Shown here in pieces: positions 9,650 to 59,684 of a stretch of DNA of 64,000 nt. Each line of letters starts with the position of its first letter. The stretch's first letter is position 1. The stretch is taken from the NCBI RefSeq assembly GCF_000585375.1, contig NZ_KK073874.1, positions 4,464,001 through 4,528,000 on the forward strand, read 5' to 3'. The notes under the pieces were generated by a model, which worked only from the letters and a program-made list of their open reading frames with translations, did not search any database and had not been told where the DNA came from. Position numbers and translations under genes: made by a program. The stretch is from Cryptosporangium arvum DSM 44712. Its GTDB lineage: Bacteria; Actinomycetota; Actinomycetes; Mycobacteriales; Cryptosporangiaceae.

Positions 9650-9769
9650 AGCCACTCTGCATACGGTCGACCGAAAGGTAGCCAGCCCCGACATTCGTAC
9701 CTAGAGTGAGGCTGCAGTTCTGTTACAGCGACGAAACTGAAGGTGACGGACCAAAGGCGGTCTACCACC

Positions 9770-11119
9770 ATGCACTACGGATCCGTGTACGCGGCCTGGG
9801 AACAATTCATCCGGGGTGACGACCACGTGCTGGGCGTCAGACCCGAAGTGGCGATCTCCTGGCACCGGTGCCGGGAGCAGTACCGGGTCGATCCGCACCT
9901 CACCGAGGCGCCGATCGCGGTGGCGGAGATCGACCACACCCCCGAGCACGACGTCGTCTTCGCCGAGCTCGGCTTCCGGGCGGCGTCGCTGGCGCACGAC
10001 GTCAGCGTGGCCGGTGGGGTCGTGACGATCTGCGACGCGACCGGCCGGATCCTCGCCGAGTGGGGCGACCCGGCGACGGTCGAGCGCGCCGAGCAGGCCA
10101 ACCTCGCGCCCTGGTTCTGCTGGTCGGAGGCGGCGGCGGGCACGAACGGCATGGGGATGGCGCTCGAGGCGCACGGCCCGGTGCTGGTGCGCGGCGCCGA
10201 GCACTGGTGCCGGGCCTTCCACGACTGGGTGTGCGCCGGCGTCGCCGTGCGTGACGTGGTGAGCCGCGAGCCGATCGCGGTGCTGAACATCTCCTGTTTC
10301 CGCAACCAGCTCCCGGCGATGGCCGGCAGCTGGCTGGCCAACGCGGCCACCAAGACGCAGTGCCTGCTGCGCGGCCGGGCCCGCGACAGCGCCGCCGAGC
10401 TGGTCGCGGCGTACACGCAGGCCCGGGCCGGTTCCACCGAGGCGCTGGCCGCGGTGGACACAGCCGGCAAGGTGGTGATCGCCGACGAGACCGCGAGCGC
10501 GCTGATGGGGGTGCCGGCCCGGGTACCCGCGCTCGACCCCACGGTCCGGTGGACCCCCGGCCTGCCCGAGCTGATCGGCGCGGCCCGGTACGCCGCCCGG
10601 CAGGCCTCCCGCAACCCCGACTACATCGGCTCCACCCAGGTGTTCACGTATCTCACCGACGAGCCGACGCCGATCACCCTGCGCCCGGTCTTCCTGTCCA
10701 GCCAGCTGATCGGCATGCTCGTGTGCTTCGGCGGGTCGGAGGAGCCGCAGCCCCCGGCCGAGCCGTCGACCCGGAATCTGCCCCGCCGGGTGGTCGCGAC
10801 CCGCGAGAACCGCACCGTGCTGCTGCGGCTGCCGGAGGTGTCGTTCGCCGAGTCGGAGGGCAACGAGGTCTGGCTCTCCACCGACCAGGGCCGGCTGCGC
10901 TCGGCGTCGTCCAGCCTGGACAGCCTCGGCGACGAGCTGGCCCCGGCCGGGTTCCTGCGCGTGCACCGCCGGTACGTGGTCAACCTCGGCCGGATCCGCG
11001 AGGTCGAGCGGCGGCGGGGAGGTGAGCTCTTCCTGGTCATGGACGACGACGCCGTGGACGGCATGGTCCCGGTCTCCCGCCGGAACGCCTCGGCGGTGCG
11101 TCGAGCACTGGACATCTGA
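9770..11119 (+). CDS. GAF sensor - LytTR DNA-binding transcriptional regulator of the PQQ locus
   Basis: A 449-residue regulator. The N-terminal half (about residues 20-190) resembles the GAF input of AcoR-like activators (GVRPEVAISWHRC, WSEAAAGTNGMGMAL), but no sigma-54 AAA+ module follows. Instead the last ~100 residues form a LytTR domain (VSFAESEGNEVWLST, FLRVHRRYVVNLGRIREV). ATG 9770 is preferred, with AGGCGG nine bases upstream; GTG 9743 nine codons earlier is an alternative. It lies 12 bases before katG and in the same direction as the PQQ dehydrogenase and pqq genes, so it is probably the local regulator, sensing an alcohol/aldehyde or redox ligand. The ligand is inferred, not seen. 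Confidence 0.9.
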   Translation: MHYGSVYAAWEQFIRGDDHVLGVRPEVAISWHRCREQYRVDPHLTEAPIAVAEIDHTPEHDVVFAELGFRAASLAHDVSVAGGVVTICDATGRILAEWGDPATVERAEQANLAPWFCWSEAAAGTNGMGMALEAHGPVLVRGAEHWCRAFHDWVCAGVAVRDVVSREPIAVLNISCFRNQLPAMAGSWLANAATKTQCLLRGRARDSAAELVAAYTQARAGSTEALAAVDTAGKVVIADETASALMGVPARVPALDPTVRWTPGLPELIGAARYAARQASRNPDYIGSTQVFTYLTDEPTPITLRPVFLSSQLIGMLVCFGGSEEPQPPAEPSTRNLPRRVVATRENRTVLLRLPEVSFAESEGNEVWLSTDQGRLRSASSSLDSLGDELAPAGFLRVHRRYVVNLGRIREVERRRGGELFLVMDDDAVDGMVPVSRRNASAVRRALDI

Positions 11120-11131
11120 ACGGAGCAGCGC

Positions 11132-13174
11132 GTGCCCGAGCCCCACGGGGGAGGCCTCGGCCTCCCGGCCCCGACCCCGAGTTACTACGCCTCGGTGGAA
11201 CGTCCCTACTCCGCTTCGCTCGAGGCCCGCCCGGCCCGGGCCGCCGAGGAGCGTCTCGACCTCCGCGTCCTGCAGAAACGCCCCGACCCCCTCGGCGACG
11301 ACTTCGACTACCCGGCCGCGTTCGGCTCGCTCGACCTGGACGAGCTCGCGCACGACGTCGACGCCGTGCTCACGACGTCGCAGGACTGGTGGCCGGCCGA
11401 TTTCGGTCACTACGGGCCGCTCGTCGTGCGGATGGTGTGGCACTGCGCCGGCACCTACCGCGTCGGCGACGGGCGGGGCGGAGCGTCCGCGAGCCTGCAG
11501 CGGTTCGCGCCGGTCGACAGCTGGCCCGACAACCGCAACCTCGACAAGGCACGGCGGCTGCTCTGGCCGGTCAAGAAGAAGTACGGCCGCCGGATCAGCT
11601 GGGCCGACTTGATGGTGTTCGCCGGCAACCGCGCACTGGAGACGATGGGCTTCCGGACGTTCGGGTACGCCGGTGGGCGCGTCGACGTGTTCCACCCCGA
11701 CGACGTCGACTGGGGGCCGGAGGCCGGCTGGCTCGGCGACGAGCGGCACACCGGCGTCCGTACCCTGGACGAACCGCTCGCGGCCGACCAGCTGGGGCTG
11801 ATCTACGTCAACCCGGAGGGCCCGAACACCGTCCCGGACGCGGTCGCGTCGGCCCGTGACATCCGCGTCACCTTCCGCCGGATGGGCTTCGACGACGAGG
11901 AGACCGTCGCGCTGATCGCCGGCGGCCACACGTTCGGCAAGACCCACGGGGTGGCCGACCCGAAGTACCACCTCGGCCCCGAACCGGCCCGAGCCGACCT
12001 CGCGCAGCAGGGCCTGGGCTGGGCGAACAGCTACGGCACCGGGAACGCGGGCGACACGATCACCAGCGGGCTGGACGGCGCCTGGACACCGACGCCGACG
12101 CAGTGGGACAACAGTTACCTGGAGAACCTGTTCGGCTACGAGTGGGACGTGGCGCTCAGCCCGGCCGGGCTGTGGCAGTGGGTGCCGAGGGGCGGGGCCG
12201 GGGCGGGCACGGTGCCCGACGCGCACGATCCGGCGAAGACCCACCCGCCGACGTTCCTGACCACCGACCTGGCGCTGCGCTACGACCGCGCCTACGGCCC
12301 GATCGCGCGACGGTTCCGGGACAACCCCGATCAGCTCGCCGACGCGTTCGCCCGGGCCTGGTTCAAGCTGACCCACCTCGACCTGGGGCCCCGTGAACGG
12401 TACCTGGGCCCGCTGGTGCCGCCGGAACCCCTGATCTGGCAGGACCCGGTGCCGGCCGACGCCGGGGCCGCCCCCGACGTCGCCGCCCTGAAACAGCGCA
12501 TCCTCGACTCCGGGCTGACGATCCCCGAGCTCGTGGAGACCGCCTGGGCGTCGGCCTCCACCTTCCGCGACAGCGACAAGCGCGGCGGCTCCAACGGCGG
12601 CCGTCTCCGGCTCGAACCCCAGCGGAGCTGGGCGGTGAACAAGCCTGACCAACTCGACCGCGTGCTGCGCACCCTCGACGCGCTCCGGCACGGGATCTCG
12701 ATGGCCGACCTCATCGTGCTCGCGGGCTGCACCGCCGTGGAACGGGCCGCCGGTGTTCCCGTGCCGTTCACCCCCGGGCGCACCGACGCCGCTCCGGAGT
12801 GGACCGACGTGGCCTCGTTCGCCGCGCTCGAACCGCTCGCCGATGGGTTCCGCAACTACCTGGACCCGCGCGCCCGCCGCCCCGCCGAACACCTGCTCGT
12901 CGACAAAGCCAGGCAGCTGACGCTGACCGCCACCGAGATGACCGTGCTGGTCGGAGGCTTGCGCACGCTCGAACACGGCGTGCTCAGCAACGCGTTCTTC
13001 GTCGATCTGCTCGACGGGCCACCCGACACGGCGACCCGCGTCGACCTGGTTTTCGGCTCCCACGGTGAGTTGCGCGCGTTCGCCGAGGCCTACGCGTCCG
13101 ATGACGCGGCCGAGGGTTTCGTCCGCGACTTCGTCGTTGCGTGGGACAAGGTGATGAACCTCGGTCGGTACTGA
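11132..13174 (+). CDS. katG: Catalase-peroxidase KatG
   Basis: A 680-residue bifunctional heme catalase-peroxidase with both tandem halves. The distal triad is R100, W103, H104 ([13 protein letters not shown]), the proximal heme ligand is H266 ([10 protein letters not shown]), and the Met-Tyr-Trp crosslink residues Y225 (LIYVNPEGP) and M251 (FRRMGF) are all present, so catalase activity is expected. It is about 50 residues shorter than typical KatG, mostly at the N-terminus and in loops, and Cys replaces the usual Ser after the distal His. The C-terminus ([14 protein letters not shown]) is complete. The GTG start has GGAG six bases upstream. It sits between the LytTR regulator and the PQQ genes, where it could remove H2O2 released by PqqC. 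Confidence 0.95.
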
Positions 13175-13277: not shown

Positions 13278-13748
13278 GTGAGGTCGATGACGATCGCGCA
13301 AGACCGGGACCTACTACTGGACAAACTCGGGCTCAACGCACAGAACAGCGCCGCACTCGGCAAGGTGCTCAACACCGGCAACATCGGCCAGGCCACGGAG
13401 CGGGCCGACGGCACGATGGAAGCGACGATCCGGATCAAGCCCGACGAGATCTGCTGGGATCCGTCGATCCTGGTCCTGCCGCACGGCGGCGACCTCGAGC
13501 TGACGCTGATCAACGACGACCTGAACACGCACTGCGCGCTGCTGCCCAGCAACGGCGACCGCAAGTTCATCTGGCTGGTCAACCACTCGAAGGGCCTGGC
13601 CAGGCTCAACCTCGACGGCCCCGGCTACTACTGGTTCAGCTCGCCGACCGGCAACGACGAGGGCCGCGGTCTCACCGGCACGATCGTCGTCCTCGGCGAC
13701 GTGCCGCCGGAAGCCCGCCTCGACCGTCCCGACCAGCCGCGTCCGTAA
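13278..13748 (+). CDS. Cupredoxin-like PQQ-associated protein (MSMEG_3727-type)
   Basis: A 156-residue protein with a cupredoxin-like beta-sandwich pattern (ILVLPHGGDLELTLINDD..., ending LTGTIVVLGDV). In copper-binding relatives the C-terminal loop carries Cys-His-Met ligands; here the matching loop reads GYYWFSSPTGNDEGRGLTG, with no Cys, His or Met, so a type-1 copper site is not expected. No signal peptide is visible. It lies 15 bases upstream of the PQQ dehydrogenase and matches the small protein family regularly found next to actinobacterial PQQ dehydrogenases; a structural or electron-transfer partner role is inferred. GTG 13278 has GGAG five bases upstream; ATG 13287 is the alternative start. 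Confidence 0.78.
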   Translation: MRSMTIAQDRDLLLDKLGLNAQNSAALGKVLNTGNIGQATERADGTMEATIRIKPDEICWDPSILVLPHGGDLELTLINDDLNTHCALLPSNGDRKFIWLVNHSKGLARLNLDGPGYYWFSSPTGNDEGRGLTGTIVVLGDVPPEARLDRPDQPRP

Positions 13749-13763
13749 GGGAGGAGTTTCCCG

Positions 13764-15461
13764 ATGACCATCGAATATGTGGACGCGGGCGAGGCCGTCG
13801 ACCAGGCCAGGCTCACGCACAAGGTCGCCGGCGGCGAAGTCGCGCCGCCGGTCACCGAGAACGTGACCTACGAGCGCATCCTCGAGGCCCGCTCCGAGCC
13901 GGAGAACTGGCTCACCTACTACGGCGCCCACGACGGGCAGCGCTACAGCCCGCTCGACCAGATCACCACCGAGAACGTCAGGCGCCTGGCCCCCGCCTGG
14001 GTGTTCCAGGCGGGAACGAGCGGCATCATCGCCGGCGCGTCGACGTACTCGTTCGAGGCCACCCCGATCGTCGTCGACGGGATCATGTTCCTGTCCGGCT
14101 GGGACGGCTGGGTCTGGGCCCTGGACGCCAAGACCGGCACCGAGATCTGGCGGTACAAGCACGCGGTGCCGTTCGACGTCTCGCTCTGCTGCGGCAACGT
14201 CAACCGCGGGGTCGCGGTCGCCAAGGGCAAGGTCTTCTTCGTCACCGCGAACGCGCACCTGATCGCCCTCGACGCCACCACCGGCAAGAAGATCTGGGAC
14301 AAGGTCAAGGGCGACGTCCGCGCCGGGGAGAGCGCCACCAGCGCGCCGATCGTCATCAAGGACATGGTCATCACCGGCAGCGCCGGCGGTGAGTTCGGGG
14401 TGCGCGGCCACCTCGACGCGTTCGACCTGGAGACCGGCGAGCACCGCTGGCGCTCCTACATGGTGCCGAAGCCGGGCGAGCCGGGGGCGGAGACCTGGCC
14501 GTCGGACGGCGAGGCCTGGGCGCGCGGCGGCGGGAACCCGTGGCTGGTCGGCACGTTCGACCCGGACACGAACCTGATGTACTGGGGCACCGGCAACCCC
14601 GCCCCCGACTTCGACGGCGGTGTCCGCGAAGGCGACAACCTCTACACCGACAGCATCGTCGCGATCGACGTCGACTCCGGACAGATCCGCTGGCACTACC
14701 AGTGCACCCCGCACGACGTGTGGGACTACGACAGCATCTCCGAGTGCATCCTGTTCGAGCGGGACGGGCGCAAGCTCCTCGGCCACTTCGACAAGAACGG
14801 GTACTTCTTCGTCCTCGACCGCACCAACGGCGAGCGGATCTCGATCACGCCGTTCGTCGACCGGATCACCTGGGGTGCGATCACCCGCGACGGCCAGGTC
14901 GCGGCCAAGGTCTACCCCGACGAAGAGGGCGTCCCTGTGCACTTCTACCCGGGCCCGGCCGGCGCCAAGGAGTGGACGCACGCGTCCTACAGCCCGCGCA
15001 CCGGGTGGTTCTACGTCCCGGTGCAGGACGTCGGGGCCACGGCCACGCGCCGGCGCCGGGAGTTCAAGGAGAGCATCCCGTACTGGGGCGCCGGCGTTCA
15101 GGTCGACATCGAGGAAGCAGTCGGCTACGTCAGCGCGTTCGACGCCGACGGCGAGGAGAAGTGGCGCTGGCGCAACGAACTGCCGATGTGTGCCTCGACG
15201 CTGGTCACCGCCGGCGACGTGGTGTTCGCGGGCGAGCCGTCGGGTGAGTTCAACGCCCTCGACGCCCGCACCGGCGAGCAGCTGTGGCAGTTCCAGTGCG
15301 GCAGCGGTCACCACAGCAGCCCGGTGACCTACGCGATCGACGGGCGGCAGTACGTGGCCGTGCCGGTCGGCTGGGGCGGCTGGGCCGAAGGCTTCCTGCC
15401 CGGCATGCTCGGCGCAGGCCACGGCAGCGCGCTGATCGTGTTCGCCCTGCCCGAGGACTAG
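13764..15461 (+). CDS. PQQ-dependent methanol/ethanol-family dehydrogenase, lanthanide-type active site
   Basis: A 565-residue eight-bladed quinoprotein with repeated tryptophan-docking motifs (ALDAKTGTEIWRY, ALDATTGKKIWDK, AFDLETGEHRWRS, ALDARTGEQLWQF). The vicinal disulfide Cys142-Cys143 (SLCCGNVNRG), metal ligands E210 (GGEFGVRG) and N278 (GTGNPAPDF), catalytic D321 and the extra D323 (HDVWDYDS) are present. The Asp-Tyr-Asp triplet is the marker of lanthanide-dependent XoxF/PedH-like enzymes; calcium enzymes such as MxaF have Ala at the second position. No N-terminal signal peptide and no cytochrome c domain are seen, unusual for a family normally outside the cytoplasmic membrane. A strong GGGAGGAG precedes the start. 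It probably oxidises a primary alcohol or aldehyde. Confidence 0.93.
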   Translation: MTIEYVDAGEAVDQARLTHKVAGGEVAPPVTENVTYERILEARSEPENWLTYYGAHDGQRYSPLDQITTENVRRLAPAWVFQAGTSGIIAGASTYSFEATPIVVDGIMFLSGWDGWVWALDAKTGTEIWRYKHAVPFDVSLCCGNVNRGVAVAKGKVFFVTANAHLIALDATTGKKIWDKVKGDVRAGESATSAPIVIKDMVITGSAGGEFGVRGHLDAFDLETGEHRWRSYMVPKPGEPGAETWPSDGEAWARGGGNPWLVGTFDPDTNLMYWGTGNPAPDFDGGVREGDNLYTDSIVAIDVDSGQIRWHYQCTPHDVWDYDSISECILFERDGRKLLGHFDKNGYFFVLDRTNGERISITPFVDRITWGAITRDGQVAAKVYPDEEGVPVHFYPGPAGAKEWTHASYSPRTGWFYVPVQDVGATATRRRREFKESIPYWGAGVQVDIEEAVGYVSAFDADGEEKWRWRNELPMCASTLVTAGDVVFAGEPSGEFNALDARTGEQLWQFQCGSGHHSSPVTYAIDGRQYVAVPVGWGGWAEGFLPGMLGAGHGSALIVFALPED

Positions 15462-15476
15462 GAGAGGAGGAAAATC

Positions 15477-15560
15477 ATGGCTGAATGGGAGACCCCGGAG
15501 TTCGTCGAGGTCGCCGTCGCCCCCGAGGTGACGATGTACATGGGCACGCTGGAGCCCTGA
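15477..15560 (+). CDS. pqqA: PQQ precursor peptide PqqA
   Basis: A 27-codon gene encoding MAEWETPEFVEV followed by the conserved PEVTMYMGTLEP tail. The Glu and Tyr of the E-V-T-x-Y motif (Glu17 and Tyr21) are the residues crosslinked by PqqE to form the PQQ skeleton. A strong GGAGAGGAGG lies just upstream of the ATG. It directly follows the dehydrogenase (15 bases) and ends one base before pqqB. It is short enough to be missed by ordinary gene callers. Confidence 0.95.
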   Translation: MAEWETPEFVEVAVAPEVTMYMGTLEP

Positions 15561-15561
15561 C

Positions 15562-16365
15562 GTGATCGCGCGGGTGCTCGGCTCGGCCGCCGGCGGCGGA
15601 TCGCCGCAGTGGAACTGTCACTGCACGGTCTGTACCGCCGTGCGCGCCGGGGCCGGGCCCCCGCGCACCCAGTCGTCGATCGCGGTGACCCTCGACCGCG
15701 ACGACTGGTTCCTGTTCAACGCTTCACCCGACGTCCATCGGCAGATCGACGGGCTGACGGTGGCCGCGGTGCTGCTCACCGATGCCGAACTGGACCACAC
15801 CGCGGGGCTGCTGCTCCTGCGTGAGGCCCGCGCGCTGCGGCTGTACGCGACCGCGGCGATCCAGCGGACGCTGCGCGACGGCTCGGGGCTGCTGCCGCTG
15901 CTCGAGCGGTACTGCACGGTCGAGTGGATCCCGGTCGAACTCGGGGTGCCGTTCCCGCTCACACCTGGTCTGACCTGCGAAGCCTTCGACGTCCCCACGA
16001 CTAAGAAGGACCGCTTCGGGGTAAATGTCAGCGAGGGCAGGGTCGTGGGGTACCGGCTCACCGACGCCGGGGGCACGCTCGTCTACCTGCCGGGCGCCCA
16101 GTCGCTGCCGGAGTTCGGCCCCTGCGACTGCCTGCTCCTCGACGGGTCGTTCTTCCGGGACGACGAGCTGTCCGCGACCCGGACCGCCCGGGACATGGGG
16201 CACCTGCCGATCGTCGACAGCATGCCGTCGATCAAGGCCCCCCGAACGATCTTCGTGCACATCAACAACACCAACCCGATCCTTCTCGACGACTCGCCCG
16301 AGCGGCGCGTCGTCGAGGCGAACGGCATGGAGGTAGCAATGGACGGCCTCGAGGTGGAGCTATGA
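15562..16365 (+). CDS. pqqB: PQQ biosynthesis protein PqqB (metallo-beta-lactamase fold hydroxylase)
   Basis: A 267-residue PqqB. The N-terminal signature RVLGSAAGGGSPQWNCHC with its Cys cluster (CHCTVC), and the C-terminal FVHINNTNPILLDDSPER, are family hallmarks. PqqB is an iron-dependent hydroxylase acting on the Glu-Tyr diamino acid released from crosslinked PqqA. The start is GTG 15562, one base after pqqA. It is somewhat shorter than the usual ~300 residues. The 3' end overlaps pqqC by ATGA. Confidence 0.95.
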   Translation: MIARVLGSAAGGGSPQWNCHCTVCTAVRAGAGPPRTQSSIAVTLDRDDWFLFNASPDVHRQIDGLTVAAVLLTDAELDHTAGLLLLREARALRLYATAAIQRTLRDGSGLLPLLERYCTVEWIPVELGVPFPLTPGLTCEAFDVPTTKKDRFGVNVSEGRVVGYRLTDAGGTLVYLPGAQSLPEFGPCDCLLLDGSFFRDDELSATRTARDMGHLPIVDSMPSIKAPRTIFVHINNTNPILLDDSPERRVVEANGMEVAMDGLEVEL

Positions 16366-17048
16366 CGGCGGTACTCGGCACGGATTTCGTCGCCACGTTG
16401 CGGGCCCACTCCCAGCGCTATCACCATCAGCACCCGTTCCACGTCCGGATGAACGCCGGTGAGCTGAGCCCCCGGCAGCTGCGGGGCTGGATCGCGAACC
16501 GCTTCTACTACCAGGAGAACATCCCCCGCAAAGACGCCGCGATCCTCTCCAACTGCCCCGACGTCGAGGTGCGCCGGCGCTGGATCCGACGCGTCACCGA
16601 CCACGACGGCACCACCGGCACCGAGGGCGGCATCGAGGCGTGGCTGCGCCTCGGCGAGGCCGCCGGGCTCCCGCGCGAGGAGATCCTCGACCATCGGCAC
16701 CTGGTGCCCGGGGTGCGCTTCGCGGTGGACGCGTACGTCAACTTCACCCGCACCCGCCCGTGGGTGGAGGCGGTCGCTTCGTCGCTCACCGAGCTGTTCG
16801 CCCCCGACCTGATGGCCGCACGGCTCGCCGCGTTCGAGCGGTACTACCCGTGGATCGAACCCGAGGGCCTCGCGTACTTCCGCAACCGGCTCCACCAGGC
16901 GCCCCGCGACTGCGAGCACGCGCTCGAGATCGTCACGACCCACTGCCTGTCGGCCGAGTCCCAGGCCGCCGCGATCGACGCGCTGTCGTTCAAGTGCGAC
17001 GTGCTGTGGAGCCAGCTCGACTGCATCGACGCGGCGTACCCGCGATGA
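16362..17048 (+). CDS. pqqC: Pyrroloquinoline-quinone synthase PqqC
   Basis: A 228-residue cofactorless oxidase of the TenA/PqqC fold that performs the final eight-electron oxidation and ring closure to PQQ, consuming O2 and releasing H2O2. Typical PqqC segments are visible: YHHQHPFHVRMNAGELS, GWIANRFYYQENIPRKDAAILSNC (given here in parts as GWIANRFYYQ and KDAAILSNC) and WIEPEGLAYFRNRL. It starts inside the pqqB stop codon and ends overlapping pqqD (ATGA), so the set is translationally coupled. Confidence 0.96.
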   Translation: MTAVLGTDFVATLRAHSQRYHHQHPFHVRMNAGELSPRQLRGWIANRFYYQENIPRKDAAILSNCPDVEVRRRWIRRVTDHDGTTGTEGGIEAWLRLGEAAGLPREEILDHRHLVPGVRFAVDAYVNFTRTRPWVEAVASSLTELFAPDLMAARLAAFERYYPWIEPEGLAYFRNRLHQAPRDCEHALEIVTTHCLSAESQAAAIDALSFKCDVLWSQLDCIDAAYPR

Positions 17049-17305
17049 CCCGCCCGAAGCTGGCCCGGCACTGCCGGTTGGGCTTCGACCGGACCCGCCA
17101 GCGGCCGATCCTGTTACTCCCCGAGACCGTGGTCGTGCTCAACACCACCGGCGCGGCGATCCTCGAACGCTGCGACGGGCGGCGCACCGTGGACGAGATC
17201 GTCACCGACCTGGGGGAGGCCTACCGGGAGGTCCCGGGCGCCGAGGTCCAGCGGTTCCTGAACGGCATGCTCGAACGTCGCTTCGTGGAGATGGTCGATG
17301 GCTGA
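17045..17305 (+). CDS. pqqD: PqqD peptide chaperone (RiPP recognition element)
   Basis: An 86-residue winged-helix RiPP recognition protein that binds the PqqA leader and presents it to PqqE. The sequence has the expected PqqD pattern (RHCRLGFDRTRQRPILLLPE, LNTTGAAILERCDGRRTVDEI). It overlaps pqqC by four bases and pqqE by eight bases. It is a stand-alone PqqD, not the PqqC-PqqD fusion found in some methylotrophs. Confidence 0.95.
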   Translation: MTRPKLARHCRLGFDRTRQRPILLLPETVVVLNTTGAAILERCDGRRTVDEIVTDLGEAYREVPGAEVQRFLNGMLERRFVEMVDG

Positions 17306-18356
17306 CCCGTTCGGGCTGCTCGCCGAGCTCACCTACCGCTGCCCGCTGTCCTGCGCCTACTGCTCGAACCCGCTGAACATGGCCGAGTACACCGACGAGC
17401 TCACGCTGCCGGAGTGGCAGCGCGTGTTCACCGAGGCCCGCGACCTCGGGGTGCTGCAGTGCCACCTGTCCGGAGGGGAACCGCTGCTCCGGCGCGACCT
17501 CGTCGCGCTGGTGGCGTCGGCGAACGCTCTCGGTCTGTACACGAACCTGGTGACCAGCGCGATCGGCCTCACCCGGCCGAAGGCCGAACAGCTCCGGGAC
17601 GCCGGTCTCGACCACGTGCAGATCAGTATCCAGGCCGACGCGCCGTCGCTCTCCGACTCGATCGCCGGCCTCCCGTCCTTCCGGCGCAAAGTCGACGCGA
17701 TGCGCGTGGTGAAGGAGCTGGGCTGGCCGCTCACCGTCAACGTCGTGCTGCACCGGCAGAACATCGACCGCGTCGCCGAGGTGCTCGACCTGGCCGAGGA
17801 CGTCGGCGCCGACCGGGTGGAGCTCGCGAACACCCAGTACTACGGCTGGGCCTGGCGCAACCGCGACGCGCTCCTGCCCAGCCGGGCCCAGCTGGAGGCG
17901 GCCGAGCAGGTGGTGCGCGCTGCTCGCGATCGGCTCTCGGTGATCTACGTCGTGCCGGACTACTACAGCGACTACCCGAAACCGTGCATGGGTGGGTGGG
18001 CCGCCCGGCAGCTGACCGTGACACCCAACGGGGACGCGCTCCCGTGCCCGGCGGCGCAGTCGCTGCCGTTGCCGACGGCCAGCGTGCGCTCCGATTCGCT
18101 GGCCCGGATCTGGAACGAGTCGCCGGTGTTCACCGCGTACCGCGGTACCGGCTGGATGCCCGATCCGTGCCGGAGCTGCGACCGGCGTGAGGTGGACTTC
18201 GGCGGATGCCGCTGCCAGGCGTTCCAGCTCACCGGCGACGCCGCCCGCACCGACCCGGTGTGCCATCTCTCCCCGGACCACGCGGTGGTGACCGACGCGG
18301 TCGCGGCGGCCAACTCCGTGGTCGACCTCCAGCTGGTTCCTCGCCCACATCGTTGA
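17298..18356 (+). CDS. pqqE: PqqA peptide cyclase PqqE (radical SAM)
   Basis: A 352-residue radical SAM/SPASM enzyme forming the Glu-Tyr C-C bond in PqqA. The radical SAM cluster cysteines are C15, C19 and C22 (RCPLSCAYCSNP). The SAM-binding GGEP follows (LSGGEPLLRRD), and the C-terminal SPASM cysteines are in KPCMGGWA, ALPCPAAQ and DPCRSCDRREVDFGGCRCQ. Length is slightly below the usual ~370. No PqqF/G protease gene is seen nearby, so precursor proteolysis would rely on an enzyme encoded elsewhere. Confidence 0.96.
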   Translation: MADPFGLLAELTYRCPLSCAYCSNPLNMAEYTDELTLPEWQRVFTEARDLGVLQCHLSGGEPLLRRDLVALVASANALGLYTNLVTSAIGLTRPKAEQLRDAGLDHVQISIQADAPSLSDSIAGLPSFRRKVDAMRVVKELGWPLTVNVVLHRQNIDRVAEVLDLAEDVGADRVELANTQYYGWAWRNRDALLPSRAQLEAAEQVVRAARDRLSVIYVVPDYYSDYPKPCMGGWAARQLTVTPNGDALPCPAAQSLPLPTASVRSDSLARIWNESPVFTAYRGTGWMPDPCRSCDRREVDFGGCRCQAFQLTGDAARTDPVCHLSPDHAVVTDAVAAANSVVDLQLVPRPHR

Positions 18357-18369
18357 CCGGGGGTGCGGT

Positions 18370-19476
18370 ATGTCGATCTTGATCTTCGTCGTCGGAGCGG
18401 CGTTACTGGTCTACTGCGCCGAGAAGCTGGTCGTGTATCTCGTGGGTGCCGCCCACGGCCTGCGGATCTCGGTGTTCCTGCTCGCGATCATCTTCACCGG
18501 GATCGAGTTCGACGACCTGGCGCTCGGCGTGGCGCTCAACGCCGAGGACCTCGGCGGGGTCGCGCTGGGCACGGTGTTCGGTACGGCGATCTCGATGACC
18601 GGGATCGTGCTCGCGCTGGCCGCGATCGTGTGCCCGACCCGGGTGCACATCCCGCGCAGCTATCTGGCGCTCTTCGCCGCGTCGCCGCTGATGATGGTGC
18701 CGTTCGTGCTGTCGGCGCCGTTGACCGCGGCCGACGGCGTCGTGCTGGTGCTGTTGTTCGTCGCGTTCATCGCGTACATCGCGACGAGGGAGCTGCAGAG
18801 CTCGACGCCGATCTTCCGGAACGCCGAGATCCTGGAACGGATCGGCGCCGACGGGCCGGGCGCCGGTGAGCACGGGGCCGGGGGATCGGGCGCCGGTGGG
18901 GTGGGCGCCGGTGGGGTGGGCGTCGCTGGGGTGGGCGGGGGGCGGCCGGGGGATCGGCCGCCGTTCGTGGTGACGATGCCGTTCACCAAGGACCGGCCGT
19001 TACCGAGGTGGGGCGGGATCGGGCTGGCCGTGCTGGCCCTGCTCGGCCTGATCGTCGCGGCCACGATCACCAGCGCCGGGATCGACGGCATCCTCGACGA
19101 CTACGCGATCGGCGGCACCCTGTTCGGCGCGACGATCGCGACCCTCGTGCTGTCGCTGGAGGACATCTTCCTGACCGTCGAACCCAACCGCCGGGGCGCG
19201 GCCGAGATCGGCATCGGCAACGTCATCGGCAGCGTGGTCTTCGGCGTGACCGCCAAACTCGGCATCATCCTCCTCACCGGCGGCGCCATCCTGGTCGGCG
19301 ACGACGTCCTCGCCTGGCACCTGCCGGTCCTGGTCGTGATGACCGGCCTGTCGGCGTACTTCATCTCCACCGGCCGCCTACGCCGCTGGCACGGCTTCGT
19401 GTTGCTGGCCCTCTACCTCCTGTACTGGGCCGTCAGCTGGTCGATGTTCGGCGAAGTTCCGATCGATGCCGACTGA
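18370..19476 (+). CDS. Sodium/calcium exchanger-family (CaCA) membrane antiporter in the pqq operon
   Basis: A 368-residue, roughly ten-helix membrane protein with the two inverted alpha repeats of cation/Ca2+ exchangers: FTGIEFDDLALGVALNAEDLGG in the first half (acidic ELDD-like cluster around GIEFDD) and LVLSLEDIFLTVEPNRRGAAEI in the second. The cytoplasmic loop between the halves (about residues 160-195) is a glycine-rich run built from short DNA repeats (GAGGVGAGGVG). It begins 13 bases after pqqE on the same strand, so it is probably cotranscribed. PQQ dehydrogenases need Ca2+ or a lanthanide, so a role in handling the cofactor metal is an attractive inference. The transported ion is not proven. 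Confidence 0.8.
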   Translation: MSILIFVVGAALLVYCAEKLVVYLVGAAHGLRISVFLLAIIFTGIEFDDLALGVALNAEDLGGVALGTVFGTAISMTGIVLALAAIVCPTRVHIPRSYLALFAASPLMMVPFVLSAPLTAADGVVLVLLFVAFIAYIATRELQSSTPIFRNAEILERIGADGPGAGEHGAGGSGAGGVGAGGVGVAGVGGGRPGDRPPFVVTMPFTKDRPLPRWGGIGLAVLALLGLIVAATITSAGIDGILDDYAIGGTLFGATIATLVLSLEDIFLTVEPNRRGAAEIGIGNVIGSVVFGVTAKLGIILLTGGAILVGDDVLAWHLPVLVVMTGLSAYFISTGRLRRWHGFVLLALYLLYWAVSWSMFGEVPIDAD

Positions 19477-22046: not shown

Positions 22047-23309
22047 ATGTCTGACCTGCATCGTCCCCTCGCCGAGATCGACCCCGATGTCTCCGCCGCG
22101 ATCGGCGCCGAGCTCCGCCGCCAGCAGACCACGCTGGAGATGATCGCCAGCGAGAACTTCGCCCCGATCGCCGTCCTGCAGGCGCAGGGCTCGGTGCTCA
22201 CCAACAAGTACGCCGAGGGCTATCCGGGCCGCCGCTACTACGGTGGCTGCGAGAACGTCGACGTCATCGAGCAGCTCGCGATCGACCGGCTGAAAGCCCT
22301 GTTCGGCGCCGAGTTCGCGAACGTGCAACCGCACTCCGGAGCCCAGGCCAACGCCGCGGCGATGGCCGCGCTGCTGCAGCCCGGCGACACGATCCTGGGC
22401 CTCGACCTCGCCCACGGCGGTCACCTGACCCACGGCATGAAGCTGAACTTCTCCGGCAAGCTCTACGACGTCGCCGCGTACCACGTCGACCGGGAGTCGC
22501 ACCGCGTCGACCTGGCCGAAGTGGAGCGGTTGGCGCACGAGCGGCGTCCGAAACTGATCGTCGCCGGGTGGTCGGCCTACCCGCGCCAGCTGGACTTCGC
22601 CGAGTTCCGGCGGATCGCCGACGCGGTCGGCGCGTACCTGATGGTCGACATGGCGCACTTCGCCGGCCTGGTCGCGGCCGGCCTGCACCCGTCGCCGGTA
22701 CCGCACGCGCACGTGGTCACGTCCACCACGCACAAGACGCTCGGCGGCCCCCGCGGCGGGTTCATCCTGGCCACCGCCGACCTGGCCAAGAAGTTCAACT
22801 CGGCGGTCTTCCCCGGCCAGCAGGGCGGCCCGCTGGAGCACGTCGTCGCGGCCAAGGCGGTGGCGTTCAGGCTCGCCGCCACACCGGCCTTCCGGGAGCG
22901 GCAGGAACGCACGCTCGCCGGGGCGCGCCTCCTCGCCGAGCGCCTCCTCGCCGACGACTGCCGCGCGGCCGGCGTCGGCGTGGTCAGCGGCGGCACCGAC
23001 GTCCACCTGGTCCTCGTCGACCTGCGTGACTCGCCGCTCGACGGCAGGCAGGCCGAGGACCGTCTGCACGACGTCGGCATCACGGTCAACCGCAACGCGG
23101 TGCCGTTCGACCCGCGCCCGCCGATGGTCAGCTCCGGCATCCGCGTCGGCACGCCGGCGCTGGCCACCCGCGGCTTCGGCGCCGAGGACTTCACCGAGGT
23201 CGCGGACGTCGTCGCGGTCGCGCTGCAGCCGTCGCCGGACGTCGAGAAGCTGCGCGAACGGGTCACCGCGCTGGCCGGGAAGCACCCGCTCTACCCGGAA
23301 GGGGTCTGA
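22047..23309 (+). CDS. glyA: Serine hydroxymethyltransferase
   Basis: A 420-residue PLP enzyme interconverting serine + THF with glycine + 5,10-methylene-THF. The PLP lysine context is [16 protein letters not shown], and substrate-site motifs ENFAP and [13 protein letters not shown] are intact. ATG 22047 is chosen, with GGAG seven bases upstream; an ATG ten codons earlier overlaps the operator. It is the first gene of glyA-soxB-soxD-soxA-soxG and its stop overlaps the soxB start (TGATG). Here it probably condenses glycine and methylene-THF, both made by sarcosine oxidase, into serine. Confidence 0.96.
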
Positions 23310-24523
23310 TGCCTCCGCCCCCCAACCATCCGCGCAGCCTCTGGCGCAACCCGGAGCCGAAACGCGCGTACGACGTGGTGATCGTCGGCGGCGGCGGGCA
23401 CGGCCTGGCCACCGCGCACTACCTGGCCGAGAACCACGGGATCACGAACGTCGCGGTGCTGGAGAAGGGCTGGCTGGCCGGCGGCAACATGGCCCGTAAC
23501 ACCACGATCATCCGGTCGAACTACCTGTGGGACGAGAGCTCGGCGATCTACGAACACGCGCTGAAGCTCTGGGAGGGCCTGGAGGAGGACCTCGGCTACG
23601 AGATCCTGTTCAGCCAGCGCGGAGTGCTCAACCTGGCCCACACGCTGCAGGACGTACGCGACAGCGTCCGCCGGGTGGAGGCCAACAAGCTCAACGGTAT
23701 CGACGCCGAGTGGCTCGACCCCGACGAGGTCCGCAAGGTCTGCCCGATCGTCAACACGTCGAGCGACATCCGGTATCCCGTCCTCGGAGCCACCTACCAG
23801 CCGCGGGCCGGCATCGCCAAGCACGACTACGTCGCCTGGGGCTTCGCGCGCCGCGCCGACGAGGCCGGGGTCGACCTGATCCAGGACTGCGAGGTCCACG
23901 GCTTCGCAACCACCGGCGATCGGGTCACCACGGTCCGGACGACGAGAGGCGACATCGCGGCCGGGAAGGTCCTCCTCTGCGCGGCCGGGCACACCTCCAC
24001 GCTCACCGACCGGCTCGGCTTCCGCGTCCCCGTGCAGAGCCACCCCCTCCAGGCGCTCGTCTCCGAGCTGCTCGAACCCGTGCACCCGACGATCGTCATG
24101 TCCAACGCGGTGCACGTGTACGTCTCCCAGGCGCACAAGGGCGAGCTGGTGATGGGCGCCGGCGTCGACTCGTACAACGGCTACGGCCAGCGCGGCGCGT
24201 TCCACATCGTCGAGCGCCAGATGGCCGCCGCGGTCGAGCTGTTCCCGGTCTTCGCCCGCGCGCACCTGCTGCGCAGCTGGGCCGGCATCGTCGACGTCAG
24301 CCCGGACGCGTCACCGATCGCCGGCCGGACGCCGTACGAGAACCTCTACCTCAACTGCGGCTGGGGCACCGGTGGGTTCAAGGCCACGCCCGGCATCGGC
24401 TGGTGCCTGGCCGACACCGTCGCCAACGACGAGCCGCACCCCTACGTCGCGCCGTTCACGCTCGACCGCTTCGTCTCCGGCGCTCTCGTCGACGAGCACG
24501 GCGCCGCCGCCGTGGCCCACTAG
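23309..24523 (+). CDS. soxB: Heterotetrameric sarcosine oxidase subunit beta
   Basis: A 404-residue FAD-dependent amine oxidase of the DAO family: N-terminal Rossmann motif [27 protein letters not shown] near the flavin, and the C-terminal [15 protein letters not shown]. This subunit holds the catalytic FAD and the covalent FMN attachment region ([14 protein letters not shown]). It oxidises sarcosine to a glycine imine, feeding a methylene group to THF. It is translationally coupled to glyA. Confidence 0.96.
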
Positions 24524-24531
24524 GAGCCGAC

Positions 24532-24777
24532 ATGCAACTGATCGACTGCCCCTTCTGCGGCCCGCGCGAGGAAGCCGAGTTCTCCTACGGCGGCCAGGCC
24601 GGCGTGGCCTACCCGGCTGATCCGGCCGCGCTCACCGACGAGCAGTGGGCGCACTACGTCTTCTTCCGCGACAACCCGAAGGGCCGCTTCGTCGAGCGCT
24701 GGTACCACGCGATCGGCTGCCGACGCTGGTTCACCGCCGTCCGCGACACCGTGACCTACCGTTTCGAGGGCAAATGA
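24532..24777 (+). CDS. soxD: Sarcosine oxidase subunit delta
   Basis: An 81-residue zinc-binding subunit: CPFCG near the N-terminus and a late HAIGCRRWF supply Cys/His ligands, with the typical DNPKGRFVERWYHA and VRDTVTYRFEG. It has a structural role in the alpha-beta-gamma-delta oxidase. It starts eight bases after soxB, preceded by TAGGAG, and overlaps soxA by ATGA. Confidence 0.95.
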   Translation: MQLIDCPFCGPREEAEFSYGGQAGVAYPADPAALTDEQWAHYVFFRDNPKGRFVERWYHAIGCRRWFTAVRDTVTYRFEGK

Positions 24778-27443
24778 GGGCCCGCACCGGCGGCCGGATC
24801 GACCGCGGCCGCACGCTCACGTTCACGTTCGACGGCGAGACCTACACCGGCCACCCCGGTGACACGCTCGCCTCGGCGTTGCTGGCCGCGGGCCGGCACA
24901 CGATCGCCCGGTCGATCACGTTCGGCCGGCCCCGGGGCATCACCGCGGCCTGGGCCGAGGACTCCGGCGGCCCGGTGCAGATCGAGGAACCGTTCCCCGA
25001 GCCGATGCGGCCGGCCACCACCGTCGAGCTCTACGACGGCCTGTCGGCCCGCAGCCTGGCCGGGCGCGGCCGGCTGGCCGACGTCCCCGACACCGCCCGC
25101 TACGACGCCAAACACCACCACGTCGACGTTCTGGTGGTCGGCGCGGGCCCCGCCGGGCTGGCCGCGGCCCGGGACGCGGCCCGGGCCGGGGACCGGGTCG
25201 CGCTCGTCGACGAGCAGTCCGAGGCCGGCGGTTCGCTGCTGAGCGAGCCCGAGACCCCGGGATGGGTCGCCGACACCGTCGCCGAGCTGGCCGCCCACCC
25301 CGACGTGCTCCACCTCCAGCGCACGACCGCGTTCGGCACCTACGACGACGGGTTCGTGCTCGCCCTGGAACGACGCACCGACCACCTGGGCGCGGCGGCC
25401 CCGAAGAACGTCTCCCGTCAGCGGGTCTGGCGCCTGCGGGCCCGGCGGATCGTGGTCGCGACCGGCGCGCACGAGCGGCCGATCGTGTTCGCCGACAACG
25501 ACCGGCCCGGCATCATGCTGGCCGGTGCGGCACGCACGTTCCTCAACCGGTACGGCGTGCTCCCGGGGCGCGCGGCGGTCGTCTTCACGACGAACGACAG
25601 CGCGTACGACGCCGCGTTCGACCTGCACCGCGCCGGGGTGCGCGTCCGGGCGATCGTCGACGCGCGCACCGAGATCCCGGCGCACCTCGCCGAGGCCTGC
25701 GACCGGGCCCGCATCTGGCTGGTGCGGGGCGCGGTCGTCACCGGCACCCGCGGCGAGGACCGGATCACCCACGCGCTCGTCGGCCCCGACCCGATCGCCT
25801 GCGACCTGCTCCTGGTCTCCGGGGGCTGGAACCCCGCGGTGCACCTGTTCAGCCAGGCCCGCGGCCGGCTGCGCTACGACGGGACGCTCGGCGCGTTCGT
25901 GCCCGGTGAACCGGTCGACGGCCTCACCGTGATCGGGTCGGCCGCCGGTGAGGTCGTCGCCTCGAAGACGCTGTGGCGGGTGCCGGGCCCGGCCGAGTTC
26001 CAGTTCGTCGACCTGCAGCGCGACGCCACCGTCGCCGACCTCCGGCACGCGGTCGGCGCCGGCCTGCGCTCGATCGAGCACATCAAGCGCTTCACGACGA
26101 TCGGCACCGCCCACGACCAGGGCAAGACCTCCGGCGTGCTGACGACGGGGATCGTCGCCGAACTGCTCGGCGTGCCGGTCGAGGCCGTCGGAACGACCAC
26201 GTTCCGCCCGCCCTACACGCCGGTGGCGTTCGCGGCGCTGGCCGGGCGCGACCGCGGCCACCTGTTCGACCCCGAGCGCTACACCGCGCTGCACGACTGG
26301 CACGTCGCGGCCGGTGCGGTGTTCGAGGACGTCGGCCAGTGGAAGCGCCCGCGCTACTACCCGCGGCCGGGGGAGGACATGCCGGCCGCGGTGCTGCGTG
26401 AGTGCGCCGCCGCGCGCACCGGCGTCGGCCTCCTGGACGGCTCCACGCTGGGCAAGATCGACGTCCGCGGCCCGGACGCCGGCGTGCTGCTCGACCGGCT
26501 CTACACGAACCTGATGAGCAGCCTGAAACCCGGGATGGTGCGCTACGGCGTGATGTGCGGCGTCGACGGGATGGTGATCGACGACGGCACCGTGCTGCGC
26601 CTGGCCGACGACCACTTCCTGGTGATGACGACGACCGGCGGCGCCGCGAAGATCCTCGACTGGATGGAGGAGTGGCTCCAGACCGAGTGGCCCGAGCTGC
26701 GGGTGCACCTCACCTCGGTCACCGATCACTGGGCGACGTTCCCGGTGGTCGGCCCGCGGTCACGCGACGTCGTCGGGGCGGTGTTCCCGGACGTCGACGT
26801 CAGTAGGGAGGCGTTTCCGTTCCTGGCGATCCGCGAGACCACACTGGACGGGGTACCGGTCCGGCTGGCCCGGATCAGCTTCTCCGGTGAGCTGGCCTAC
26901 GAGGTGTACGTCAGCTCCTGGTACGCGGTGGCGATCTGGCAGCGGCTCCTGGACGCCGGCCGGCCGCACGGCCTCACGCCGTACGGCACCGAGACGATGC
27001 ACGTGCTGCGGGCCGAGAAGGGCTACCCGATCATCGGCCAGGACACCGACGGCACGGTGACGCCCCAGGACCTCGGGATGGCCTGGGTCGTCTCGAAGAA
27101 GAAGGCGGACTTCGTCGGCAAACGGTCGTTCGCGCGGGCCGCGAACCTCGACCCGCTCCGCAAGCACCTGGTCGGGCTGCTGCCGCTCGACCGGCGCACC
27201 GTGCTCCCGGAGGGCTCGCAGATCGTCGAGCGGCTCACCGAGCCGCCGGTCGCCATGCTCGGGCACGTCACGTCCAGTTACCGCAGCGCCGAGCTCGGCC
27301 GCCCGTTCGCGCTCGCGCTGGTCAAGGGCGGGCGGGAGCGGGTCGGAGAGGTCCTGCAGGTGCCGGTGGACGGCACCCTCGTCCCCGTCGAGGTCACCGG
27401 CCCGGTGCTGGTCGACCCGGAAGGAGCCCGTCGCGATGGCTGA
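24774..27443 (+). CDS. soxA: Heterotetrameric sarcosine oxidase subunit alpha
   Basis: An 889-residue subunit with an N-terminal 2Fe-2S-ferredoxin-like segment (FTFDGETYTGHPGDTLASAL), an NAD-binding dinucleotide domain (VLVVGAGPAGLAAARDAARAG), and a C-terminal GcvT-like aminomethyltransferase half (from about residue 510: LYTNLMSSLKPGMVRYGVM, ISFSGELAYEVYV) that transfers the one-carbon unit to THF. The start is set at the ATGA overlap with soxD; upstream codons in this frame lie inside soxD. It is slightly shorter than the usual ~960 residues. Confidence 0.95.
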   Translation: MRARTGGRIDRGRTLTFTFDGETYTGHPGDTLASALLAAGRHTIARSITFGRPRGITAAWAEDSGGPVQIEEPFPEPMRPATTVELYDGLSARSLAGRGRLADVPDTARYDAKHHHVDVLVVGAGPAGLAAARDAARAGDRVALVDEQSEAGGSLLSEPETPGWVADTVAELAAHPDVLHLQRTTAFGTYDDGFVLALERRTDHLGAAAPKNVSRQRVWRLRARRIVVATGAHERPIVFADNDRPGIMLAGAARTFLNRYGVLPGRAAVVFTTNDSAYDAAFDLHRAGVRVRAIVDARTEIPAHLAEACDRARIWLVRGAVVTGTRGEDRITHALVGPDPIACDLLLVSGGWNPAVHLFSQARGRLRYDGTLGAFVPGEPVDGLTVIGSAAGEVVASKTLWRVPGPAEFQFVDLQRDATVADLRHAVGAGLRSIEHIKRFTTIGTAHDQGKTSGVLTTGIVAELLGVPVEAVGTTTFRPPYTPVAFAALAGRDRGHLFDPERYTALHDWHVAAGAVFEDVGQWKRPRYYPRPGEDMPAAVLRECAAARTGVGLLDGSTLGKIDVRGPDAGVLLDRLYTNLMSSLKPGMVRYGVMCGVDGMVIDDGTVLRLADDHFLVMTTTGGAAKILDWMEEWLQTEWPELRVHLTSVTDHWATFPVVGPRSRDVVGAVFPDVDVSREAFPFLAIRETTLDGVPVRLARISFSGELAYEVYVSSWYAVAIWQRLLDAGRPHGLTPYGTETMHVLRAEKGYPIIGQDTDGTVTPQDLGMAWVVSKKKADFVGKRSFARAANLDPLRKHLVGLLPLDRRTVLPEGSQIVERLTEPPVAMLGHVTSSYRSAELGRPFALALVKGGRERVGEVLQVPVDGTLVPVEVTGPVLVDPEGARRDG

Positions 27444-27876
27444 GCTGCTGCGGACGCACGCGCTGGAGTCCCGCGTCGAGGCGCTGGCCGCCGCCGGGAT
27501 CGTGGTCGAGCCGTACGTCGCGATGACGAACGTGCGGGGCGCGGACGCGCCGCCCGCGGGCATCCGCCTGGGCCCGGACGAGTGGCTCGTGGTCGGCGCC
27601 GCCGGCGAACCCGGCGGGTCGGTCACCGACGTGTCCGCGCAGTGGATCACGCTGCGCCTGACCTCCGGCCACGCCCGGGACGTGCTGGCCACCGGCTGCG
27701 CGATCGACCTGCACCCCCGGGCGTTCCCGGAGGGCACGAGCGTGCAGACCCGGCTGGCGCAGGCCGGCGTGATCCTCACGTCGCTGGGCGCCGGCGGCTA
27801 TCGCGTGCTCGTGCGGTCCACGTTCGCCGGCTACCTCGCCGACTGGCTGCTCGACGCGACGAGCGAGTTCAGATGA
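27436..27876 (+). CDS. soxG: Sarcosine oxidase subunit gamma
   Basis: A 146-residue gamma subunit with a GcvT-like small fold (RLGPDEWLVVG, VTDVSAQWITLRLTSGHARDVLATGCAIDL in shorter pieces such as LATGCAIDLHPRAF, and YRVLVRSTFAGYLADWLLDA). It overlaps soxA by eight bases, completing the oxidase operon. It is shorter than many homologues (~190 residues) but the C-terminal half is complete. The 3' end overlaps the convergent gntR gene by eight bases. Confidence 0.93.
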   Translation: MAELLRTHALESRVEALAAAGIVVEPYVAMTNVRGADAPPAGIRLGPDEWLVVGAAGEPGGSVTDVSAQWITLRLTSGHARDVLATGCAIDLHPRAFPEGTSVQTRLAQAGVILTSLGAGGYRVLVRSTFAGYLADWLLDATSEFR

Positions 27877-59596: not shown

Positions 59597-59684
59597 ACTA
59601 CCCTCCTGGCCCCGGTGACAGCGCTCACAGTACGGCTCGCGCGGAGTAAGCTCGCACGCACCCTCGGCTGGGAGGAATGTGGCG

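Follow-up and report, generated by a model that had tools for sequence, protein, structure and literature searches.

Gene cassette around the dehydrogenase

The window analysed here is a stretch of 64,000 nucleotides of the soil actinobacterium Cryptosporangium arvum DSM 44712 (contig NZ_KK073874.1, positions 4,464,001 to 4,528,000, forward strand), and the gene under study (13764–15461) encodes an alcohol dehydrogenase dependent on pyrroloquinoline quinone (PQQ), which carries a lanthanide-type metal site and has no signal peptide. It lies in a cassette that reads, on the plus strand, LytTR regulator, KatG, MSMEG_3727-family protein (hereafter the partner), dehydrogenase, pqqA, B, C, D and E, and CaCA antiporter; from 13287 to 19476 neighbouring genes overlap or are separated by at most 15 nt. 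The cassette is interpreted, with moderate confidence, as specifying a cytoplasmic, lanthanide-type PQQ alcohol dehydrogenase with a copper-less cupredoxin-like partner and with a KatG neighbour that hints at O2/H2O2. The genes were assigned as follows:

13764–15461, plus strand: PQQ-dependent alcohol dehydrogenase, methanol/ethanol family, no signal peptide (TIGR03075, 621.5 bits against a cut-off of 480.05)
13287–13748, plus strand: MSMEG_3727-family PQQ-associated protein, 153 aa (PF23509, 3.8e-80, 267.1 against 27 bits; TIGR04339, 278.9 against 75 bits)
11132–13174, plus strand: KatG catalase-peroxidase, true start possibly further in (TIGR00198, 859.2 bits against a cut-off of 770.25; catalytic residues)
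9743–11119, plus strand: LytTR-domain regulator (PF04397, 1.9e-15), N-terminal half weakly DhaR-like (DhaR model 32.5 bits, far under the cut-off of 551)
15477–15560, plus strand: PqqA, 27-aa PQQ precursor peptide MAEWETPEFVEVAVAPEVTMYMGTLEP with Glu-x3-Tyr (PF08042, 8.1e-07; TIGR02107, 25.2 against 20 bits)
15562–16365, plus strand: PqqB (TIGR02108, 280.9 bits against a cut-off of 245)
16362–17048, plus strand: PqqC (TIGR02111, 317.7 bits against a cut-off of 240)
17045–17305, plus strand: PqqD, ATG at 17045 (TIGR03859, 73 bits against a cut-off of 46, searched from 17042)
17298–18356, plus strand: PqqE radical SAM enzyme (TIGR02109, 511 bits against a cut-off of 381.35)
18370–19476, plus strand: CaCA-type (Na/Ca exchanger-like) cation antiporter (PF01699, 87.6 bits)

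The five pqq genes are complete, in order and all above their NCBIfam cut-offs. Neither a cytochrome c (XoxG) nor a periplasmic binding protein (XoxJ) was found among the cassette genes identified by Pfam and NCBIfam. When the frames of the window with the codon pattern of this genome were scanned for CXXCH, the sole occurrence was CERCH in the frame 58703–59710 (minus strand), about 43 kb off, in agreement with the earlier statement that no cytochrome c gene is nearby. The initial annotation had also recognised the metal site and the missing signal, both of which stood, and had rightly raised the location and the electron acceptor of the enzyme as questions; it had overlooked the partner, katG, the adjacent pqqABCDE genes and the transporter slot. 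With the partner, which was present in every locus fetched, and with KatG, local PQQ synthesis and the transporter slot, the dehydrogenase is part of a conserved system and not a single-gene oddity.

Start and metal site of the dehydrogenase

The open reading frame yields a product of 565 aa with the N-terminal sequence MTIEYVDAGEAVDQARLTHK. Its GC contents by codon position (0.64/0.49/0.96) are as expected for a genuine gene in DNA of 72% GC, and GGAGGAG stands immediately 5' of the ATG. An in-frame TAA (13746–13748) is followed by five codons (GRSFP), none of them ATG, GTG or TTG, so that no longer N-terminus is possible with the common start codons. An upstream in-frame start that adds a signal, which the initial annotation had named as contrary evidence, was looked for and is thus ruled out for the window gene. 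The maximum 10-residue mean hydropathy within the first 60 residues was 0.87 and the maximum 19-residue hydropathy over the full length 1.56; neither a signal peptide nor a membrane anchor was seen in these hydropathy windows or on inspection of the N-terminus.

The residues E210, N278 and D321-Y322-D323 and the vicinal pair C142-C143 were identified, the six metal-site and cysteine residues at exactly the positions claimed before. The nearest PDB entries by sequence were 6zcv (E 4.4e-116) and 6zcw (E 1.7e-115), which we take to be PedH of Pseudomonas putida; in the alignment, the Glu, the Asn, the Asp, the second Asp and the Cys-Cys pair are all matched in the dehydrogenase.

Conservation and co-occurrence

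Homologous loci were collected from a scan of a species-genome collection, and the best 80 of 107 confirmed loci were compared (all actinobacterial by title, 70–87% identity); with the window and a second copy in one locus (L065), 82 rows were obtained. E210, N278, D321, Y322, D323, C142, C143, W260 and K344 are invariant in 82/82 dehydrogenase rows. A gene of the MSMEG_3727 family lies directly upstream of the dehydrogenase in 80/80 loci, at a gap (to the aligned start) of 14 nt in the median and 10–164 nt in range (n=81 including the window). The N-terminus of the dehydrogenase is conserved in itself among the 80 loci, and its hydropathy peak is at most 1.61 (median 1.02) over the 82 rows. 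An in-frame stop occurs no more than 10 codons upstream of the start in 26 of the 82 rows, and the longer upstream frames at the remaining loci run into the partner gene. The comparison of actinobacterial N-termini that the initial annotation had proposed thus shows the start without Sec or Tat signal to recur, and it is not limited to one gene.

All six metal and cysteine residues are retained in 24/24 further loci of the order, the starts of which are likewise signal-less; the hydropathy of their upstream extensions never exceeds 1.32, and none is signal-like. In a family that belongs to another class of the phylum, the gene order partner, dehydrogenase, pqq is retained in seven of seven loci, and the enzyme starts are signal-less (judged by eye); the contig of one of these loci (L108) ends within pqqB. 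Among 348 genomes of the order, the dehydrogenase exceeded the curated cut-off in 26 and the partner (E ≤ 1e-20) was found in 26, the two sets of genomes being identical, and by coordinates a partner match adjoins all 29 dehydrogenase places over the cut-off. Four other genomes of the order contain only sub-cut-off relatives of the dehydrogenase (263–277 bits), and the partner is absent from them. Across the phylum (296 genomes), the eight with a dehydrogenase over the cut-off are the same eight that give a strong full-length partner match. A ninth partner match (G290) was strong but covered only part of the protein; this match and a fragment of the dehydrogenase (G259) are situated close to contig ends or within short frames. 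Two genomes narrowly above the partner-family cut-off (G046 and G127; 30.4 and 27.9 against 27 bits) were read as ordinary cupredoxins and kept outside the strong-match count. The unexported enzyme, with local PQQ synthesis and its partner, occurs in several actinobacterial families.

Two arrangements of the cassette were noted in passing. In Streptomyces sp. NBC_01483 it is complete, from regulator to MntP-like gene, on a 1.56-Mb linear plasmid typed as mobilizable (NZ_CP109439.1, match 71431–73122). In Psychromicrobium silvestre (L065, 2296–7686) partner and dehydrogenase are present twice, head-to-head and identical over 2259/2259 bases, flanked by the pqq genes at one end and by katG at the other.

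Partner protein

The partner family is already known to be PQQ-associated, being named for its link to PQQ genes in Pfam and NCBIfam (PF23509/TIGR04339). The partner carries no signal either (hydropathy peak 0.95), and a sequence search of the PDB gave nothing significant (best E 0.12). For an AlphaFold2 model the window sequence was aligned with 49 of 78 distinct homologues (50 rows in all), L063 being excluded since no start codon was found near its aligned start. The model is a beta-sandwich with a mean pLDDT of 78.6 and a pTM of 0.73, and in the fold comparison cupredoxins ranked top: auracyanin (6kol) with E 5.2e-05, the CopA metal-binding domain with Z 11.6 (rmsd 2.8 over 97), CupA with Z 11.1 (rmsd 2.0 over 88 residues) and nitrosocyanin with Z 9.9 (rmsd 2.6 over 89). 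The partner is accordingly predicted to adopt a cupredoxin fold.

To place the copper ligands, the partner was aligned by HMM with a cupredoxin frame that has them (L094). The first His corresponds to His82, and the positions of the Cys, the second His and the Met are taken by Ser119, Asp124 and Leu129. N76, D77, D78, N80, T81, H82, Ser119, N123, Asp124 and E125 are invariant in the 82 rows, and Leu129 is present in 80 of them. As three of the ligands are replaced, a type-1 copper centre is very unlikely; the partner may instead offer a hard ion an oxygen-rich site.

Exported relatives and a motif of the unexported clade

Nine outgroup PQQ enzymes were hand-picked from the 50 listed of 605 matching plasmid records, the start codons of two (L149, L152) being chosen by script. 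Signal-like N-termini were present in 9/9 (hydropathy peaks 2.08–3.02) and Asp-x-Asp in 8/9, the Sphingobium quinohaemoprotein having Asp-Tyr-Thr. In a tree of 44 rows the unexported dehydrogenases form a single clade with support of 100/99; a fragment from genome G167 is included in the clade, and the tree has several long branches in the outgroup and some uncertain joins. This fragment (L123) belongs to a broken homologue of the dehydrogenase, present in pieces and placed beside the clade.

The clade is marked by the motif C512-G-S-G-H516-H517, in which the Cys is found in 80, H516 in 81 and H517 in 82 of the 82 rows. In the outgroup, His at 516 or 517 was found in 0/9 and Cys at 512 in 1/9, and a paralogue encoded in the C. 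arvum genome has Cys512 and one His of the motif. Judged by the spacing from the tryptophans of the propeller blades (W129 to C142, W310 to D321, W467 to C476, W508 to H516-H517), the CGSGHH loop is at the place where other blades carry active-site residues, and it is therefore likely to border the entrance to the active site.

Exported relatives also occur within the phylum, and four were inspected. Two of them (L120 and L121, genomes G292 and G078) combine a lipoprotein-like start and an Asp-Tyr-Asp lanthanide-type site with a C-terminal CXXCH domain; the other two (L122 and the own-genome paralogue, L111 7033–9216) have a Tat-like start and a C-terminus that is cupredoxin-like by eye. It is only suggestive that these four bring a C-terminal domain of their own and that the unexported clade has a separate partner. 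The paralogue (C1, about 3.82 Mb) is a PQQ propeller of 727 aa with Thr/Gly at the columns of E210/N278 and without the Cys pair; its neighbours (L111 7033–11546) are a pqqC gene that is intact and a pqqE-like one split among three frames. Pfam Cupredoxin_1 scored 21 bits on its C-terminus, under the cut-off of 27. Homology of this C-terminus with the partner is not claimed (hhalign probability 5.5%, no phmmer or hmmsearch match).

KatG and the transporter slot

Of the 80 loci, 65 have a KatG (>300 bits); among the 65 loci that extend more than 5 kb on both sides of the dehydrogenase, 55 have one. The 65 KatGs lie upstream on the same strand (58), downstream (6) or on the opposite strand (1). 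With two KatGs in 9.2 Mb of genome, a random 14-kb stretch would contain one in about 0.3% of cases. The KatG of the window has a median identity of 71% to the other cassette KatGs and 57.5% identity to the second KatG of its genome; the cassette KatGs show a median of 62% to that second KatG, which those of L041, L042 and L044 resemble more closely than they resemble the window KatG. The window KatG has the distal Arg-Trp-His, the proximal His and the Trp-Tyr-Met triad, and so do at least 63 of 66 rows, the others mostly having gaps there. The identity correlations between enzyme and KatG (0.73) and between enzyme and partner (0.53; 1540 pairs) were set aside, as the partner N-termini were untrimmed and the pairs are not independent. 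The LytTR-domain regulator is present in 68/80 loci.

The slot after pqqE was examined in the 51 loci that have pqqE in the same operon and more than 1.5 kb beyond it. A cation transporter was present in 43 of them, of the MntP-like type in 32 and of the CaCA type in 11, both in none and neither in eight; MntP-like genes were counted anywhere in the locus (far upstream in L033, 1.4 kb past pqqE in L078). One MntP-like gene is that at L031 11181–11774; the type was assigned by PF02659 (2.3e-26). CaCA-type genes occur in 13 of all 80 loci. In 5/7 loci of the other class pqqE is directly next to, or overlaps, an MntP-like gene; one of these loci (L104) has a CaCA gene nearby as well, so that the two types are not strictly exclusive. 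Clustering of 281 filtered neighbouring ORFs, judged by eye, gave no recurrent electron carrier; the MntP-like family was the sole wide recurrence (29 loci), followed by a family in eight loci and several in five or fewer.

Some kilobases downstream of the cassette, the window contains a C1-/H2O2-related operon with genes of a heterotetrameric sarcosine oxidase (FAD oxidoreductase, alpha-type subunit, SoxG; 23309–27876) and, near these, a serine dehydratase (28558–29928).

Proposed mechanism and alternatives

PQQ from the adjacent pqqABCDE operon would be loaded without crossing the membrane, and a trivalent lanthanide (less likely Ca2+) bound by E210, N278, D321 and D323 would activate it to accept a hydride from a small alcohol. 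The partner would most likely form a complex with the dehydrogenase, as a small subunit or as a factor for metal or PQQ loading, and not as a blue-copper electron carrier. Electrons would pass to a cytoplasmic acceptor, perhaps O2 among others, and KatG would remove H2O2 on the spot. The enzyme is very probably cytoplasmic, because neither it nor the partner has a signal, PQQ is made next door, and KatG and the PQQ-making proteins are cytoplasmic types. Preference for a lanthanide over Ca2+ appears likely, since the second Asp is invariant and free Ca2+ is very low in the cytoplasm. The electron acceptor is the weakest step. A cytoplasmic enzyme could not reach an exported cytochrome c, which argues for an acceptor inside the cell, and O2 is suggested as one by the recurrence of KatG; with KatG clearing H2O2 it fits the neighbourhood in most, not all, lineages, and as a physiological acceptor it is doubtful. 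The fullest version would be an intracellular PQQ–lanthanide alcohol oxidase that passes its electrons to O2 with the aid of a copper-free cupredoxin-like subunit; KatG would destroy or consume the H2O2, and the MntP- or CaCA-type transporter would keep the metal in balance. This version is speculative and, taken as a whole, quite unlikely.

Several observations weigh against the interpretation as a cytoplasmic lanthanide enzyme with a link to KatG. A disulphide between Cys142 and Cys143 is disfavoured in a reducing cytoplasm; the second Asp is a correlate of lanthanide use and not proof of it; the structure model of the dehydrogenase (23 rows, the window and 22 of the 80 loci) reached a pLDDT of 65.2 and is too weak for use; and genome G552 has a second MSMEG_3727-family gene (C1:2677307–2677762, the 30th partner match of the order sample) with no dehydrogenase match at E ≤ 1e-60 beside it. 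KatG is missing from 10 of the 65 well-covered loci, Geodermatophilus among them, and no match to it was found in the seven loci of the other class, so that it is not a fixed part of the cassette. Its removal of H2O2 cannot then be obligatory, which favours transfer of the electrons not to O2 but to a dedicated carrier in the cytoplasm or the membrane (flavoprotein, menaquinone, mycofactocin or similar), with KatG as a co-travelling stress gene. This alternative has a substantial chance, somewhat short of even. The neighbourhood clustering shows no recurrent carrier gene, however, and selection for the activity is suggested by the linkage of KatG on either side of the dehydrogenase and by the three loci whose cassette contains another type of KatG.

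Dehydrogenase and partner may also be cytoplasmic with Ca2+ or another divalent ion in the active site, the second Asp being tolerated or structural. The slot after pqqE is occupied here by a CaCA-type gene, of a family named for Na/Ca exchange, and a known lanthanide-uptake gene was not identified in the cassette; the scarcity of free Ca2+ and the invariance of the second Asp in 82/82 rows make a divalent ion unlikely all the same. The position of this Asp is held by Ser in the Ca-dependent PedE and by Asp in the lanthanide-dependent PedH, according to the relevant part of PMC5487730. Export of the folded dehydrogenase, either through a pathway that uses no recognised signal or as a passenger of an exported partner, would agree with the known relatives of the family, which work outside the cytoplasmic membrane, and an oxidising exterior would suit both a Cys-Cys disulphide and Ca/lanthanide chemistry. 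Export is nevertheless improbable, given that the sole constant partner is also signal-less, that the paralogue of the same genome carries a Tat-like signal, and that the neighbouring KatG and PQQ-making proteins are of cytoplasmic types. A mis-called start that conceals a signal peptide has next to no chance: many homologues have longer upstream open frames and a few a possible start codon (e.g., L010), but these are set against the nearby stops in 26 of the 82 rows and the low hydropathy of the extensions in the 24 loci of the order.

Comparison with known systems

The enzyme resembles the PedH/ExaF-type lanthanide PQQ ethanol dehydrogenases in fold, in family and in the alignment of the Glu, the Asn, both Asp residues and the Cys-Cys pair. 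It differs from them in having neither a signal peptide nor a nearby gene for a cytochrome c partner, in being clustered with a cupredoxin-like partner, its own PQQ genes and KatG, and in carrying CGSGHH instead of TGSGVLG. With XoxF systems it shares a PQQ alcohol dehydrogenase with a lanthanide-type Asp and a recurrent metal-transporter neighbour; in the parts of PMC10875860 that bear on the matter, NRAMP genes are linked to XoxF3 systems, comparable to the transporter slot described here, and XoxF systems are described as periplasmic, with the cytochrome XoxG and the binding protein XoxJ. Unlike in these systems, neither gene type is annotated in the window cassette, whereas cytochromes lie on both sides of the Sagittula xoxF5 locus. 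As the export and the cytochrome partner that define XoxF and PedH were not found, the cassette was not counted as a member of either.

In Mycobacterium smegmatis, MSMEG_3726 is the lone PQQ alcohol dehydrogenase and lies within a PQQ cassette, as stated in the section of PMC3023750 concerned; the corresponding section of PMC6529628 lists MSMEG_3721–3727 as putative PQQ genes and states that, during growth on ethanol under the conditions of that study, their function and that of mycofactocin do not overlap. The likeness is drawn by name only (MSMEG_3727 for the partner family, MSMEG_3726 for the dehydrogenase), and export, metal and partner fold are undiscussed in these sections of PMC3023750 and PMC6529628. 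The partner shares its predicted fold and the first His (His82) with type-1 copper cupredoxins (auracyanin, plastocyanin-like) and with the Cu(I)-binding CupA/CopA domains; unlike type-1 copper cupredoxins, it has Ser119, Asp124 and Leu129 in place of the Cys, the second His and the Met.

To our knowledge, lanthanide alcohol dehydrogenases are regarded as periplasmic. PQQ methanol dehydrogenase is placed in Gram-negatives in the pertinent passage of a 2013 review (PMC3763247). Within the accessible portions of the open-access literature, no description was found of an unexported or Gram-positive lanthanide-type PQQ enzyme, which is weak evidence of absence, nor of the missing signal, lanthanide-type site, copper-less cupredoxin fold, KatG link and transporter slot of this cassette. 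An enzyme of lanthanide type that is conserved and not exported, and that comes with PQQ synthesis next door and a dedicated partner, makes the periplasmic and Gram-negative assumptions testable in laboratory strains. It also poses the questions of which electron acceptor serves a quinoprotein cut off from cytochrome c and what a copper-less cupredoxin does beside a dehydrogenase.

In yeast, methanol oxidase and catalase couple intracellular alcohol oxidation to the disposal of H2O2. The window cassette would be similar if the oxygen step is right, with enzymes that are unrelated (a flavin enzyme in yeast, a PQQ enzyme here, the oxidase activity of which is hypothetical). It would then represent a cytoplasmic lanthanide enzyme of a Gram-positive, and with it a reason for cells to take lanthanides into the cytoplasm, and would be a bacterial counterpart of the methanol oxidase–catalase system of yeast.

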